The notes under the pieces: model-generated
The model's input: the letters and a program-made list of their open reading frames with translations, nothing else
Told to the model about the DNA's origin: nothing
The model's database searches: none
Translations under genes and position numbers: made by a program
From: Candidatus Nealsoniibacteriota bacterium
Lineage (GTDB): Bacteria; Patescibacteriota; Minisyncoccia; Minisyncoccales; MHMH01
Direction of reading: 5' to 3'
Length of the DNA: 44,387 nucleotides
Assembly: GCA_016181965.1 (NCBI GenBank)
Contig: JACOYH010000005.1
Location: forward strand, 1-44,387
Part shown: piece by piece, positions 7,756-40,916 of the stretch
Layout: each line of letters begins with the position of its first letter
How positions within the stretch are numbered: position 1 is the stretch's first letter

Positions 7756-7762
7756 GCGAGGG

Positions 7763-7789
7763 AGGGGTTTCTTTCGAGAGACCCCTTTT
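7763..7789 (+). terminator. intrinsic terminator with UUCG tetraloop
   Basis: AGGGGTTTCT-TTCG-AGAGACCCCT-TTT. Confidence 0.8.
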
Positions 7790-7790
7790 G

Positions 7791-7819
7791 TTGACTGTTG
7801 AACTATAATCGTATATAAA
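7791..7819 (+). promoter_or_regulatory. sigma70-type promoter for the nitroreductase/PaaK/ThiF/kinase operon
   Basis: TTGACT (7791-7796), 17-bp spacer, TATAAA (7814-7819); GAGGAGG RBS near 7850. Confidence 0.65.
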
Positions 7820-7861
7820 TTGAGCTAATAGCACCTTTAATGCATAACGAGGAGGCGAAAC

Positions 7862-8833
7862 ATGATGTCGAAAGAAATAAAGTTATTACTGGAATGCGGC
7901 GTTCGCGCGCCCTCAAGCCACAATTCCCAGCCATGGCTTTTTAGGGTGGACGAAAAATATATTGAAATATATGCCGATCCCAAAAGACGCTTGTCAGAAG
8001 CGGACCGAGATGGAAGAATGCTTTTTGTGTCTTTGGGATGCCTCATAGCCAATTTAAAAATCGCGGCTGATTTTCTTGGCCTGTCGCACTCTTTAGCATA
8101 TTACACTTCTGGCACTTCGGACTTGGCGGCTCGAATGAATTTTTTTGGCGAAAAAAAGAAAGCGAACGGGGACTACTTTAGGGCCACCTCGGAAAGGCGT
8201 TCCAACAGAAACCAATATAAAAACAGGCCGATTCCTGAAGATGTTATTCGGGCATTGAAAGACCTGAACCGCGACGAAGGTCTGAGGATTGATTTTGTTA
8301 CCTCATATAAAACGAGGGCGCAAATCGCCGACATTTCAAGCCGGGCAATGGGAAGGATAATGTCGCGTTCTCCCTTTCGCCGAGAATTAGCGCATTGGCT
8401 GAGAACCAATATCACCCGAAAAAAAGATGGCATGCCCGGCTCCGGCCACGGCATGTCTTTGCTGGTTTCTTGCATAGCCCCCCACATACTGCGGCACGTT
8501 GATGTGTCAAAAGTTGAAGCGAAAAAGGAACGCAAGCGGATTATGAATTTTCCGGCGGTGGTGGTCATTAGCTCAAGGGGAAATCACCGGCAACAGTGGC
8601 TGAAAGTTGGTGAACTTCTCGAAATGATTTTACTGGCGGCGCAAAGCAAGTCGATTGATTCTGCCATTCGGGTAGCGTCTATTGAAGACCAAATCGCCAG
8701 AGAAGAATTGAGGCAAGCACTGGGCCTGCGTAATTTTGAACCGCAAATGCTTTTTGGACTTGGCTATGCTGAAAAAACAGCTCCCCACAGCCCAAGGCGA
8801 AGAATAGAAGATTATATCCTACCCGCAAGGTAG
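7862..8833 (+). CDS. nitroreductase-family (Acg-like) protein
   Basis: 323 aa; RAPSSHNSQPWLFRV N-terminal signature; ERRSNRNQYKNRPIP; C-terminal FGLGYAE. Confidence 0.72.
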   Translation: MMSKEIKLLLECGVRAPSSHNSQPWLFRVDEKYIEIYADPKRRLSEADRDGRMLFVSLGCLIANLKIAADFLGLSHSLAYYTSGTSDLAARMNFFGEKKKANGDYFRATSERRSNRNQYKNRPIPEDVIRALKDLNRDEGLRIDFVTSYKTRAQIADISSRAMGRIMSRSPFRRELAHWLRTNITRKKDGMPGSGHGMSLLVSCIAPHILRHVDVSKVEAKKERKRIMNFPAVVVISSRGNHRQQWLKVGELLEMILLAAQSKSIDSAIRVASIEDQIAREELRQALGLRNFEPQMLFGLGYAEKTAPHSPRRRIEDYILPAR

Positions 8834-8838
8834 GATAT
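8814..8838. repeat. 25-bp perfect hairpin across the nitroreductase stop codon (ATATCCTACC-CGCAA-GGTAGGATAT)
   Basis: 10-bp perfect arms, 5-nt loop; TAG stop (8831-8833) is in the right arm. Confidence 0.85.
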
Positions 8839-8859
8839 TTGCTATTATATAAAAAGAGC

Positions 8860-10380
8860 ATGTATAACCCATACCTCAAGTTTTTATACAAACCGGAGGC
8901 GAGACAAAAGCTTAAAAATAATATCGGCGATTTTGCGCATTTTGACGCTGATTATTGTTCTAAATTATTGATTTCCAAAGAGCCGGAATTTTGGCAGAAA
9001 GCCGGGGAGAAAATGGCGCTGACTCTATTTCGGGCAGCCGCTTACAGGGTGCCAGCTTACAAGGATTTTCTAAAGAGGAATAAAATCAACCCAGTTAAAA
9101 TTAAAACGATTGCCGATTTTAGCAAACTGCCCATCATCGACAAAAAAAACTACCTCCAAAATTATCCAGTCGAAAAACTATGCTGGGACGGCAAGGTTGA
9201 AAAAAACACCCTTTTGGCTGTAAGTTCCGGGTCTTCGGGCGTGCCATTTTTTTGGCCGCGGGGCGACAATCTTGAGTTGGAAACAAGCATTTACCATGAG
9301 CTTTTTCTGCGGGATATCTTTGGAGCAGATCGACATTCCACATTATTTATTATTACTTTTTCGATGGGAATCTATATTGCCGGCATCATTACCTTGAATT
9401 CTGTCTTGAGAGCGGCTCAAAAATCATATCCCCTGACTGTTATAACACCCGGCATAAACGCCGATGATACCCTGAGGGTCATCAAAGAAATGGGGCAAAA
9501 ATATGAGCAAATTATCCTCGCCGGCTATCCGCCCTTCGTAAAAGATATATTAGAGCAGGGGGAACGGGAAAAGATTAACTGGAACAATTTCAGAATGAAA
9601 TTTTTATTTGCTACCGAGGGTTTTAGCGAAACCTGGCGCGATTATGCTTTGCAAAAAGCCGGCTCAAAAAACATCCTAAAGGACTCCTTGAATATTTACG
9701 GCTCGGCCGATGCCGGCATTTTGGGACACGAAACGCCAATTTGTATATTTTTGCGAAGAGAAATGCCCGACTTATTTCAGAGAAATAATCGCCTGCCCAC
9801 TTTAACTCAATACAATCCCTTATTAAAATATTTTGAGGAAATCAATGGTGAGGCAATTTTTTCCTGCTATGGCGGTATTCCTTTTGTGCGCTATAATATT
9901 CATGATACGGGAGGCGTCTTAAATTTCGGCGAAATCGCCAAAATACCGCCTCAAAAAGCTTTTAACGATAAAATTTGGAAACTGCCATTTCTTTATGTTT
10001 TCAGCAAAAGCGATAACACCAGCTCGCTTTATGGCGTTAATATATACCCCGAGAATATCAAAACCGCATTAGAGCAGGCGCAATTTAATAAAATGGTTAC
10101 CGGAAAATTTGTCATGACCGCTAGAAATAAACCCAATAACCATGATCAATATCTGGAGATTAATATTGAATTGGCTGAAGCATGCGCCGCGAGTAAAAAA
10201 TTACTAGACAAAATACGAAGGGTTATCATTAGAAATTTACAAAAAAGCAATTTGGAATACGGCCGCCTGCGGCAATCAATCGGAGCCAAGGCCGACCCTA
10301 AAATTATTTTGTGGCCCCAAAATCACGCAAAATATTTTAACCCCCAAGCTATAAAACAGAAATGGAGTTTAAACCCATAG
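8860..10380 (+). CDS. phenylacetate-CoA ligase / PaaK-like adenylate-forming enzyme
   Basis: AVSSGSSGVPFFWPRG P-loop-like motif, NIYGSADAGILGHETP, C-terminal LEYGRLRQ...PKIILWP. Track ORF begins at 8839; ATG at 8860 used here. Confidence 0.7.
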   Translation: MYNPYLKFLYKPEARQKLKNNIGDFAHFDADYCSKLLISKEPEFWQKAGEKMALTLFRAAAYRVPAYKDFLKRNKINPVKIKTIADFSKLPIIDKKNYLQNYPVEKLCWDGKVEKNTLLAVSSGSSGVPFFWPRGDNLELETSIYHELFLRDIFGADRHSTLFIITFSMGIYIAGIITLNSVLRAAQKSYPLTVITPGINADDTLRVIKEMGQKYEQIILAGYPPFVKDILEQGEREKINWNNFRMKFLFATEGFSETWRDYALQKAGSKNILKDSLNIYGSADAGILGHETPICIFLRREMPDLFQRNNRLPTLTQYNPLLKYFEEINGEAIFSCYGGIPFVRYNIHDTGGVLNFGEIAKIPPQKAFNDKIWKLPFLYVFSKSDNTSSLYGVNIYPENIKTALEQAQFNKMVTGKFVMTARNKPNNHDQYLEINIELAEACAASKKLLDKIRRVIIRNLQKSNLEYGRLRQSIGAKADPKIILWPQNHAKYFNPQAIKQKWSLNP

Positions 10381-11390
10381 TTTTTAATACAAGGCGAGAA
10401 GCTCCCTCGAAAGCAAAAGAGCTTGATGTTTTTACGGGTAGCATACGCGAGCTTTTTTTTATCAGAAATCCTCAATTTAAGGATGGTATGCCGCAGGCGG
10501 AAAAACCGCTCGCTGAATTTTTCGAAAAAAATAAAAACGCCATCGAAAACGTTTGGATTTATTACCCATGGCTCAATAAAATTGTGCATTGCCCCGCGGA
10601 AGATATCTTTTTTGAGATAAAAACCGCCAGAAATAAGAACTTCATCACAGAAAGCGAGCAAAAAGGTTATCGTGATTTTAAAATAGGGATTATGGGCATG
10701 TCAATCGGCTCGAATGTTCTCTGGCCGCTTATTGCTTCCGGGGGGCCGAAATTCTTGAGAATTGCCGACGCCGACACCATAGAAATCTCCAATTTAAACC
10801 GCATGTTGGCGCCCCTAACCGCCGCGGGCGAGAATAAAGCCGCTTTTATGGCAAAAAAAATTTATGAAATGGATCCCTTTTTGAAAGTGGATTATTGGAC
10901 AAATTTTGTCGACGAGGGCAATATGAGCAAATTTATTTCCGGGCTTGATTTACTGGTTGATGAAATAGACGGACTTTCCTTGAAATTTTCGGCCAGGAAC
11001 ATTGCCAAGAAATTAAGAATTCCAGTTATAATGGTTACCAATGTTGGCAATAATGTTGTTTTAGATGTGGAGAGATTCGACCGAGAGCCGAAACGGCCCA
11101 TATTCCATGGCCTGATGAAGGGCGTTCAGACAGAGCAATTAAGCAATATGACATATAAAAGGTGGGTGGAAATAGCCACGAAAATTGTCGATCCTAAATA
11201 TCTGGATAATAAGATGAAATCATCGCTGAAATCAATAGGTAAAAAGACCGCCTCGGTGCCTCAAATCAGTTCTACTGCTTTAATCGCCGGTTCAATCGCA
11301 ACGCAGGCGGTAATGCGCATGGCTGCCAAAAGGCCGCTGAAGTCAGGAAGATACTTTTTTGACATAGATAATCACTTCAAGGTATGTTAA
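10362..11390 (+). CDS. ThiF/MoeB/E1-like adenylyltransferase family protein
   Basis: 342 aa; GIMGMSIGSNVLWPLIASGG, ADADTIEISNLNRM, DEIDGLSLKFSARNIAKKLRIPVIMVTN; no C-terminal CxxC pair seen. Confidence 0.75.
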   Translation: MEFKPIVFNTRREAPSKAKELDVFTGSIRELFFIRNPQFKDGMPQAEKPLAEFFEKNKNAIENVWIYYPWLNKIVHCPAEDIFFEIKTARNKNFITESEQKGYRDFKIGIMGMSIGSNVLWPLIASGGPKFLRIADADTIEISNLNRMLAPLTAAGENKAAFMAKKIYEMDPFLKVDYWTNFVDEGNMSKFISGLDLLVDEIDGLSLKFSARNIAKKLRIPVIMVTNVGNNVVLDVERFDREPKRPIFHGLMKGVQTEQLSNMTYKRWVEIATKIVDPKYLDNKMKSSLKSIGKKTASVPQISSTALIAGSIATQAVMRMAAKRPLKSGRYFFDIDNHFKVC

Positions 11391-13003
11391 ATTTTACTTT
11401 TACCCGCTTAGACCTGGATGTTCTAATCACTCTTATTCCGATAATAGCCAGTTTGGCATTGGCCTTTTTGGTTTATACGAGGAATAAAAATAATTTAAGC
11501 AACAGGGTTTTCTCTGTCGCTTGTATAACGATTCTTCTTTGGGCGGCCGCGAACTATTTCTCCAGCCACCCCGTCCTTTTGGACGATTTAATTTGGATTC
11601 GCTTGGTTCTGTTTTTTGCCGTTTTTATGCAGTTTATGTTTTTTCTTTTTGTTTATCTATTTCCTAAAAATGTTTTTCTGGCGGCAAAATGGAAACTTTT
11701 GATTTTAACGTTGTTCGCTGGGTCAACAATGGCGGCCACGCTTTCGCCGTTTATATACACGAAATTAGAAATTAAAAACGGGGTTATTGTGCCTCTGCCG
11801 GGAATATTAATGCCCCTATTCGCTTTCAGTATTTTTCTATTTTTAGGGCTAGCGGTTTATTATATTATTAAAAAATACCGCTCGGCCCAAGGTGATGAAA
11901 AAATGCAGTGGCGCTTTATTTTATCCGGCTTTTCCATCATGTTTTTTTTGCTCATTATTTCGCAATTTCTGTCGGTGGTGCTTTTGCAGAGAACTGATTT
12001 CGTAAAATTCGGGCCTCTTTTCACCCTGCCTTTCATTATTTTATCGGCTTACGCAATCATCAAACATCGTCTCCTAAATGTAAGAGTAATAGCCGCCGAA
12101 TTGCTCGTGGGCGCAATTTTACTAATCTTGTTTATAGAGGTTTTAACCGCGCCCACCCTCTGGGAACTGCTTTGGACTTTACTGCTTTTTTTAATCGTGG
12201 GCATTCTCGGCCTGCTATTGATAAAATCCATCCTAAAAGAAGTGCAGGATAAATTGCGGATTCGGGAATTGGCCGATCATCTTGAATTAGCCAATGAAGA
12301 ATTAAAAACAATCGACCAGACAAAATCAGAATTTTTATCTATTGCGTCGCACCAGCTCCGCACGCCCTTAACAGCCATTCAGGGTTACACGTCTATGATT
12401 TTAGAGGGCAGCTACGGCAATTTACCGGAAACAATGAAAAAACCGCTTGAGAATGTTTTTTCGTCCAGCCAACGATTGGTAAAATTAGTGAACAATCTCT
12501 TAAATATATCCCGCATTGAAGCCGGCAGAACAAAATTGGAACCTCAAAAGATTTTGCTGGGGGAACTTATCTCCAGCGTGGTTCAGGAATTATCGGTAAG
12601 CGCGCAGCAGAAAAAAATCAAATTAAAATGGCAGAGATTGCGCAATCAATTGCCTGAATTATTATTAGATCAGGAAAAAATGCGGCAGATTATCTTGAAT
12701 ATTCTTGACAATGCGATACGATATACAAATAAAGGCGAAGTAGAAATCAAAGCAGCGGCAGAAAACGGCTCGCTACGCATATCTGTAAAAGATACTGGCG
12801 CAGGCATGACGAAAGAAGAAATTGGGCAGCTTTTTCGCAGTTTCGGGCGCGGAAAAACTGGAAGCCGCCTCAACGCTAATGGGACAGGTTTGGGATTGTA
12901 TGTAGCAAAAAAATTTGTTGAAATGCATGGCGGCGAAATCTGGGCTGAAAGTTTAGGCAAGGGCCAGGGCAGCACTTTCAACATAAAAATTCCTATAAAA
13001 TAA
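11384..13003 (+). CDS. multi-TM sensor histidine kinase
   Basis: 539 aa; N-terminal TM segments, HisKA SEFLSIASHQLRTPLTAIQGYTSMILEG, HATPase motifs NILDNAIRYTNKGEV, DTGAGM, GTGLGLYVAKKFVEMHGGEIWAES. Confidence 0.92.
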   Translation: MLNFTFTRLDLDVLITLIPIIASLALAFLVYTRNKNNLSNRVFSVACITILLWAAANYFSSHPVLLDDLIWIRLVLFFAVFMQFMFFLFVYLFPKNVFLAAKWKLLILTLFAGSTMAATLSPFIYTKLEIKNGVIVPLPGILMPLFAFSIFLFLGLAVYYIIKKYRSAQGDEKMQWRFILSGFSIMFFLLIISQFLSVVLLQRTDFVKFGPLFTLPFIILSAYAIIKHRLLNVRVIAAELLVGAILLILFIEVLTAPTLWELLWTLLLFLIVGILGLLLIKSILKEVQDKLRIRELADHLELANEELKTIDQTKSEFLSIASHQLRTPLTAIQGYTSMILEGSYGNLPETMKKPLENVFSSSQRLVKLVNNLLNISRIEAGRTKLEPQKILLGELISSVVQELSVSAQQKKIKLKWQRLRNQLPELLLDQEKMRQIILNILDNAIRYTNKGEVEIKAAAENGSLRISVKDTGAGMTKEEIGQLFRSFGRGKTGSRLNANGTGLGLYVAKKFVEMHGGEIWAESLGKGQGSTFNIKIPIK

Positions 13004-40531: not shown

Positions 40532-40916
40532 TATTGGTCTTTCCGTATTTTAGAAAATTATTAATCTTCTCTACGATTTCGGCCAAAGTATTATTTGATT
40601 TGGCAAAATAATCCAGAGCGCCCATCTTCAAACCCCTCTTAATATCTTCATCTTGTTCCAAAGCGCTAATAATAATCACCGGGATTCCGCTGGTGATAGG
40701 CGATTCCTTCAACTCTTTCAACACATCAAAACCGCTTGTGCCGGGCAAAATCAAGTCGAGCAAAATCAGATCTGGCTTCATTGATATCGCTATTTCCAAA
40801 CCGCTTTTTCCATCGAAGGCCTGCTTAGCCGTAAAACCATTCCGCTCAAGTTCCGAAGTTAAAGCCATTGAGATCGCCTCTTCATCTTCAATAAAAAGTA
40901 TTTTTTTCTTATCCAT
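40500..40916 (-). CDS. stand-alone response-regulator receiver protein
   Basis: KKILFIEDEEAISMAL, PDLILLDLILPGTSGFDVL, PVIIISALEQ, GALDYFAKSN. Confidence 0.92.
   Translation of the reverse strand: MDKKKILFIEDEEAISMALTSELERNGFTAKQAFDGKSGLEIAISMKPDLILLDLILPGTSGFDVLKELKESPITSGIPVIIISALEQDEDIKRGLKMGALDYFAKSNNTLAEIVEKINNFLKYGKTNSGANSQKPAE

Follow-up and report, generated by a model that had tools for sequence, protein, structure and literature searches.

N-acyl oxazolones (azlactones) are made in mycobacteria by TrzS, the product of Rv1355c, and by TyzB/TyzC (PMC12856293, PMC10404671). With TrzS, TyzB/TyzC and OxzB, oxazolone synthases have already been characterised, so the ThiF and flavin oxidase (FDO) half of the pathway described here, which the initial annotation of this DNA had called uncharacterised, has known counterparts (PMC12856293, PMC10404671). 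The TyzA-TyzC-TyzB (tyrazolone, Mycobacterium tuberculosis), OxzAB (Pseudoalteromonas rubra) and NasY/stieleriacine clusters share with our locus a compact plan of acyl transfer, ThiF and desaturase, the desaturase belonging in each case to the nitroreductase superfamily, but they use a GNAT-type acyltransferase, and a linked histidine kinase (HK) receptor is not reported in the papers on them that we consulted. In TrzAS (Rv1356c-Rv1355c), which makes N-acyl tryptazolone in Mycobacterium and Rhodococcus, ThiF and FDO also act together, and the ThiF part is of the same family as ours, with the same adenylation residues and without CxxC; in contrast to TrzAS, our ThiF and FDO are separate genes, the FDO is Acg/Rv3131-like, a PaaK-type ligase takes the place of the GNAT TrzA, and a 7TM HK is added. 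Oxazolones do not survive acid or methanol (PMC12856293). So far, the case for a signalling role of mycobacterial N-acyl oxazolones has been built chiefly on structural resemblance and on cyclic-di-GMP genes nearby; enzymes of the same kind that travel with a dedicated receptor kinase make such a role testable.

We analysed a window of 44,387 nucleotides from a Candidatus Nealsoniibacteriota bacterium (contig JACOYH010000005.1), in which four intact open reading frames follow each other on the forward strand: an Acg-type FDO (7862-8833, 323 aa), a PaaK-type adenylate-forming ligase (8860-10380, 506 aa), a ThiF protein homologous to Rv1355c/TrzS-type cyclases (10362-11390, 342 aa) and a 7TM sensor HK, the proposed receptor (11384-13003, 539 aa). 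PaaK overlaps ThiF by 19 nt and ThiF overlaps HK by 7 nt; the four-gene operon is confirmed, with genes as tightly spaced or overlapping as the initial annotation had described. The PaaK start is most likely ATG 8860 rather than TTG 8839, because the first conserved residues common to PaaK and a relative (L034) begin there. Upstream, an intrinsic-terminator-like UUCG hairpin on the forward strand (7761-7788), recognised by fold and sequence, closes a GreA-like gene and is backed by fold computation (-18.2 kcal/mol, z -2.75). The near-consensus promoter that had been proposed behind it fared less well: the candidate sigma-70-like TTGACT-N17-TATAAA (7791-7819, forward strand; 10/12 matches, without the last T of the -10) was read from the sequence and was not among the sites returned by a consensus promoter scan, and the TTGACT and TATAAT hexamers upstream of FDO are only 7 nt apart. 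We regard the site with the N17 spacer, which is the properly spaced one, as a plausible operon promoter, less than near-consensus. A further, stable hairpin on the forward strand between FDO and PaaK (8814-8838, z -3.9) is a possible attenuator, and folding of L034 gave a hairpin at the same position. At the other end, only 3 nt separate the HK stop from the start of aspS, so HK does not define where the transcript ends downstream.

The ThiF protein matches the ThiF domain (PF00899, 75 bits) and scores 277 bits against the Rv1355c family NF005901, over the ThiF half of that family, compared with 63 bits for the next family and 52-56 bits for ThiF/MoeB. This bears out the kinship with Rv1355c claimed earlier. 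The window genes are split and stay below the NCBIfam equivalog cut-off of 476 bits for the full-length ThiF-FDO fusion. The same cassette in one CPR relative (L058) contains a TrzS-like ThiF-FDO fusion that scores 452 bits over its full length. The adenylation residues G112, D136, N146, R147, K159 and D203 are invariant in alignment A1, which is too diverse for a pattern search. D203, within VDEID, aligns with the EECD of a Rhodococcus TrzS-type protein and is invariant in 18 CPR ThiFs; its equivalence to the ATP-site Asp D217 of TrzS was assigned from the motif rather than from the M. smegmatis sequence. The initial annotation was right that ThiF has no CxxC pair, but the absence is no special clue to non-canonical E1 chemistry, since the pair is found in 0/114 relatives and is likewise missing from the Rhodococcus TrzS-type homologue. 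ThiF thus appears to be the cyclase part of an Rv1355c/TrzS-type enzyme with intact adenylation motifs.

The FDO belongs to the nitroreductase superfamily (PDB 2ymv, Acg, E 3.6e-14), carries a conserved RRSNR motif at residue 112 and, with 240.9 bits against the Acg-family model NF047509 (cut-off 199), falls among the Acg/Rv3131 FMN oxidoreductases. It differs from the FDO-A-type desaturases of Tyz/Trz/Oxz clusters, scoring 241 bits as Acg/Rv3131-type versus 81 for Rv1355c. In two relatives (L037 and L042), the FDOs lie closer to Rv1355c/PRK14851. FDO-Bs have been suggested to act on other lipids (PMC10404671). Our FDO falls in this Acg/Rv3131-like FDO-B branch, which is not known to act in oxazolone synthesis; this counts against the reading of the cassette proposed below, as does the oddity of an O2-dependent FDO among the mostly anaerobic CPR.

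Sequence recognition of the ligase is weak (45.5 bits versus a cut-off of 646 for TIGR02155), which sets it apart from the phenylacetate-CoA ligase equivalog. Its AlphaFold model has a pLDDT of 90.5 (37 in a single-sequence run) and is nearest in Foldseek to ATP-bound PaaK1 (2y27, E 9e-24, TM 0.69/0.81). By its predicted fold, C-terminal domain and ATP-site motifs (SSGSSGVP, YGSAD, RYNIHD, SKSDN..GVNIYP) it is a PaaK-type adenylate-forming ligase. The PaaK-family enzymes NatL2 (nataxazole) and ClxA (closoxazole) form ester or amide bonds directly from acyl-AMP without CoA, and share with our ligase both the PaaK fold and a C-terminal extension beyond PaaK, which in NatL2 blocks the CoA step. 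They differ in that identity is only ~15% and in that their heterocycle is a benzoxazole made by an amidohydrolase, as opposed to the oxazolone that ThiF would make. As sole query against genome contigs, the window PaaK found no relatives. On a Nonomuraea record, the surroundings of a PaaK homologue are unannotated and contain none of the other cassette genes.

ThiF, FDO, PaaK and HK form a conserved CPR cassette, which recurs across many lineages and in ~14% of CPR genomes. A gene-neighbourhood check, which the initial annotation had suggested, showed the PaaK-ThiF-FDO trio plus HK to be strongly co-conserved, so that the refuting condition named there, a lack of co-conservation, did not arise: ThiF lies near PaaK in 69 of 80 loci and FDO in 57 of 80, and most HK-linked loci also contain both. 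Many loci add a tyrosine/phenylalanine-type ammonia-lyase, a Leu/Trp-type dehydrogenase or an aminotransferase, and a Doudnabacteria contig (L117) carries a complete ammonia-lyase/PaaK/ThiF/FDO set; no amino-acid enzyme or response regulator adjoins the window operon. Some loci consist of PaaK and HK without ThiF, which indicates that the ring-forming step is not invariant, and in a relative of the same family (L004/L086), GNAT-ThiF-FDO occupies the same genomic neighbourhood.

The kinase comprises HisKA_7TM, HisKA (H323) and HATPase_c domains (Pfam). Its gene follows downstream, in the same orientation, at 41 of 47 ThiF loci, with a median gap of 9 bp, and at 64 of the 80 named PaaK loci, so that the linked sensor kinase noted earlier is a conserved feature. 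If loci were independent, the chance of 41/47 would be ~3e-32, a figure that genome relatedness weakens; with both counts, linkage of the putative synthase and receptor genes exceeds chance. In 381 genomes, nearly all the best sensor matches are at these cassette loci; many CPR genomes that lack the cassette have 7TM kinases of this type as well. CheY-like response regulators are found in 15 of 47 ThiF loci. The PaaK-HK distance-matrix correlation, calculated without species-tree control, is modest (r 0.21); such correlations agree with linked evolution and are not used as proof. As in quorum-sensing systems of the LuxI/LuxR and LuxN/CqsS types, the gene for the candidate small-molecule synthase adjoins that for the proposed receptor. 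In one CPR locus (L101) a LuxI-family protein (PF00765, 43 bits) is the neighbour of the same sensor HK, which in another (L102) is part of a ThiF-GNAT-HK-RR run. Unlike in those systems, the candidate synthase is a three-enzyme PaaK/ThiF/FDO line.

Altogether, we read the cassette as small-molecule biosynthesis with its own receptor, most likely an autoinducer-like cell-signalling system of CPR, a reading to which we give about equal belief and doubt. Counting against it, no gene of the cassette was recognised as an exporter, ThiF is missing from some loci, 7TM kinases of this type are also found apart from the cassette, and the window operon has neither an amino-acid enzyme nor a response regulator beside it. 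By analogy with the known pathways, the product would best be read as an oxazolone-like N-acyl amino acid derivative. The PaaK-type ligase, standing in for the acyl-CoA-dependent GNAT, would convert a free carboxylic acid to acyl-AMP and couple it, either directly or by way of CoA, to an amino acid, yielding an N-acyl amino acid; in related cassettes, the ammonia-lyase, amino-acid dehydrogenase or aminotransferase may supply or divert an aromatic or branched amino acid. ThiF would then adenylate this N-acyl amino acid at its carboxylate, the amide oxygen would close the five-membered oxazolone ring, and the flavin oxidase would desaturate C-alpha/C-beta. The 7TM HK may respond to this product, intact or with its ring opened, and signal through a CheY-like response regulator. 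The initial interpretation stands in part: carboxylate adenylation and flavin oxidation within small-molecule biosynthesis are supported, as are the Rv1355c kinship and the kinase, and the uncharacterised ThiF/FDO half and the CxxC clue fall away. It is tempting to speculate that an oxazolone-type autoinducer, made by PaaK/ThiF/FDO from a free acid and an amino acid and read by the 7TM kinase, serves communication widely across CPR/Patescibacteria, a proposal that we advance tentatively and with more doubt than confidence.

The linkage of kinase and enzymes would also fit an N-acyl amino acid or oxazolone that is secreted against neighbours as an antimicrobial or for defence. The HK would then sense the toxic product, or stress from the host or in the envelope, and switch on production or protection instead of serving cell-cell signalling. 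CPR are often episymbionts, and Acg-type FDOs are part of the DosR stress regulon of M. tuberculosis. N-acyl tyrosine derivatives of this class do have antimicrobial activity (PMC12856293). We nevertheless consider this rather unlikely: a dedicated exporter or self-resistance gene is not seen recurring in the cassette, and signalling is favoured by loci elsewhere that pair this sensor HK family with a LuxI-family synthase. A structural or redox metabolite, such as a membrane lipid, pigment or cofactor, with the linked HK regulating its synthesis as a housekeeping function, is still less probable. In its favour, membranes may be where C12 tyrazolones reside (PMC12856293), the flexirubin tyrosine ammonia-lyase FlxA is the nearest match for most of the ammonia-lyases (610 bits, cut-off 700) and PaaK weakly matches FlxY, but the window's 99%-complete genome has no detectable carrier protein (PF00550), making a flexirubin-like polyene route unlikely there, and a core metabolite would be less patchy than ~14% of CPR genomes.

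The PaaK fold and the amino-acid-degrading enzymes of relatives could also suggest catabolism of aromatic amino acids, with PaaK as a phenylacetate/aryl-CoA ligase and with ThiF and the nitroreductase as passengers. The proximity of both to PaaK (69/80 and 57/80 loci) argues against passengers or chance neighbours, further degradation genes are not seen recurring, and the proven chemistry of the family is biosynthetic; simple PaaK catabolism was rejected on the co-conservation of the cassette and is very improbable. FMN dehydrogenases occur in TOMM clusters, and the E1 fold of ThiF and weak matches to E1-E2 defence models would be compatible with activation of a Ubl or of a ribosomal peptide C-terminus (TOMM/MccB-type), with FDO as azoline dehydrogenase. 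In the 99%-complete genome, however, neither YcaO cyclodehydratase (PF02624) nor ThiS/MoaD (PF02597) was detected, and ThiF resembles the TrzS cyclase (277 bits) far more closely than it does ThiF/MoeB (52-56 bits); E1/Ubl and TOMM readings were rejected, and we give peptide or protein modification hardly any credence. The lack of a carrier or Ubl protein, previously noted for the neighbourhood, thus extends to the whole genome. Phage-defence E1-E2 was rejected on only weak partial PADLOC matches.

A signalling role for the cassette would provide a precedent for the mycobacterial oxazolones and a case of signalling biosynthesis in reduced-genome bacteria without acyl carriers. Among the papers listed by our open-access literature searches, none showed a small-molecule communication system in CPR, and our results suggest unreported chemical signalling in bacteria that are thought to have little biosynthesis. 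The N-acyl amino acid synthase of exosortase/AHL type (GNAT, TIGR03694) has no match in the window's genome or in the cassette, and an ATP-only route, with PaaK replacing the acyl-CoA-dependent GNAT, would suit cells in which no acyl carrier protein can be detected. The same genome contains a second cassette, composed of PaaK, an ammonia-lyase and an HK.

All four genes reported in the initial annotation were present between 7862 and 13003, in the order flavin-dependent oxidase (FDO, 7862-8833), adenylate-forming ligase (PaaK, starting at 8839 or 8860 and ending at 10380), E1-like cyclase homologue (ThiF, 10362-11390) and 7TM sensor histidine kinase (HK, 11384-13003); aspS starts 3 nt past HK. 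The UUCG terminator proposed 5' of the operon was recovered as a hairpin at 7761-7788 (-18 kcal/mol). The supposedly near-consensus promoter proved weaker, with TTGACT and TATAAT hexamers spaced by just 7 nt; the usable pair is TTGACT-N17-TATAAA, which was absent from the promoter consensus-scan list. A stable hairpin between FDO and PaaK (8814-8838, z -3.9) is a possible attenuator, and a hairpin with a T-rich tail occupies the equivalent position in a relative (L034).

The FDO is an Acg/Rv3131-type FMN oxidoreductase (240.9 bits; PDB 2ymv). ThiF is an adenylating domain of the Rv1355c family, scoring 277 bits there against 63 for the runner-up family, and HK combines HisKA_7TM, HisKA and HATPase_c domains. 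At the sequence level PaaK is hardly recognisable, scoring 45 bits against TIGR02155. Its AlphaFold model, built from a 45-sequence alignment (pLDDT 90.5), matched PaaK1-ATP first (E 9e-24, TM 0.69/0.81), followed by BT_0428, HCL, AjiA1, NatL2 (PDB 6siw-6siy) and ClxA, and the ATP-site motifs are intact.

Rv1355c is TrzS, in which the ThiF domain performs ATP-driven cyclisation of N-acyl tryptophan and the FDO domain uses O2 to introduce a double bond into the ring (PMC12856293); TyzB (ThiF) and TyzC (FDO) carry out equivalent reactions on N-acyl tyrosine (PMC10404671), and N-acyl dehydrotyrosine clusters have genes in common with these pathways (PMC12479983). The adenylation residues G112, D136, N146, R147, K159 and D203 are kept in the window ThiF and invariant across 18 CPR sequences, D203 aligning with an Asp of a Rhodococcus TrzS-type protein. 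The missing CxxC zinc pair of ThiF had been read as a clue to non-canonical chemistry; the absence stands, but the pair is also missing from the Rhodococcus protein and from all 114 relatives, and its absence is therefore a family trait and no special clue. A Doudnabacteria cassette encodes a nearly canonical TrzS-like ThiF-FDO fusion (L058 6968-9181, 452 bits) together with PaaK, an amino-acid dehydrogenase and HK. Outside CPR, ThiF relatives on two Streptomyces plasmids (L108 and L109, 36-37% identity) adjoin KAS III and GNAT, respectively.

The first enzyme of these known pathways is a GNAT-like N-acyl amino acid synthase. In a genome of the same family (G004, loci L004/L086), a cyclic-phosphodiesterase-like gene, murC and one small gene precede GNAT-ThiF-FDO, which is a classic oxazolone-type set; the contig ends after FDO, and an HK may lie beyond. 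The window carries FDO-PaaK-ThiF-HK at the equivalent neighbourhood. Because it has no GNAT and its FDO is of the Acg/Rv3131-type B branch rather than the A branch of known oxazolone clusters, the window cassette lacks two defining features of the Tyz/Trz/Oxz clusters and is set apart from them. That no carrier or Ubl protein lies nearby holds genome-wide: PF00550 acyl/peptidyl carriers, ThiS/MoaD, YcaO and TIGR03694 GNATs were undetectable in this 99% complete genome. The PaaK-family enzymes NatL2 and ClxA join an acid to an amine or phenol without CoA (PMC7204872, PMC12519233). By analogy, we infer that the CPR PaaK may do the same, and a ligase running on free acid and ATP would be a sensible GNAT substitute.

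Co-conservation of the trio, on which the initial annotation hinged, was found. ThiF occurs in 52 of 381 CPR genomes (48/339 of good quality) and PaaK in 55 of the 381. Of 47 ThiF loci, 42 also have PaaK and 41 a downstream same-strand HK, at a median distance of 9 bp and frequently with overlap; 35 include FDO, 31 an amino-acid enzyme and 15 a CheY-like response regulator (RR). A second, named collection of 80 PaaK loci, partially overlapping the 381-genome set, has HK within four genes downstream in 64, ThiF nearby in 69, FDO nearby in 57 and an ammonia-lyase, dehydrogenase or aminotransferase in 53. Every record with a named lineage is CPR, and 13 further records are labelled 'bacterium' only; lineages include Doudna-, Magasanik-, Wolfe-, Roizman-, Lipton-, Sacchari-, Kaiser-, Yanofsky-, Gottesman-, Adler- and Nealsonbacteria. 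The ammonia-lyases are MIO-type, most being closest to the tyrosine ammonia-lyase FlxA and one closer to tyrosine 2,3-aminomutase; the other amino-acid enzymes are Leu/Trp-dehydrogenase-like. On another contig of the window's own genome (L087 3542-7350), three genes lie consecutively on one strand: a PaaK of which the contig edge leaves the C-terminus, an ammonia-lyase of 514 aa that has GASGDL as its MIO motif, and a histidine kinase. The organism may therefore own two such systems. The sensor of this second kinase matches that of the window HK, yet has no HisKA_7TM match in Pfam.

When the N-terminal 305 residues of HK were searched against the same 381 genomes, about 35 of the 39 best sensor matches lay, by inspection, at cassette loci; of 29 HKs from cassettes, 22 contained HisKA_7TM. 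Two of the few strong CPR matches away from cassette loci are informative. At one (L101 6101-8433), a GNAT matching Pfam Autoind_synth (LuxI family, 43 bits against a cut-off of 24) and FeeM lies directly 5' of the 7TM HK; the other (L102 5150-8987) is a one-strand ThiF-GNAT-HK-RR run with an AHL-synthase-like GNAT. This receptor-kinase family thus repeatedly adjoins autoinducer- or N-acyl-amino-acid-type small-molecule synthases.

It is likely that PaaK, ThiF and FDO together build a small amino-acid-derived molecule, and HK probably senses it. An oxazolone-type ring is a slightly favoured guess for the product, and a role of the product as an intercellular signal is a more tentative suggestion. 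The main cautions for the mechanism as a whole are that the window FDO belongs to the B type, which has so far no established link to oxazolones, that PaaK-HK occurs without ThiF at some loci, and that FDOs need O2. The cassette enzymes are relatives of known enzymes, and the open-access literature searched held no report of the PaaK-for-GNAT architecture, the co-encoded receptor kinase or the CPR-wide spread.

Window-type 7TM HKs also lie beside a KAS III-like enzyme (L103 5254-8143) and a UbiA-like prenyltransferase (L104 5309-7794), possibly further synthase-receptor pairs. In the window, a receiver-domain protein at 40563-40901 (-), one of only four found in the genome and not adjacent to HK, is a possible partner of the kinase.
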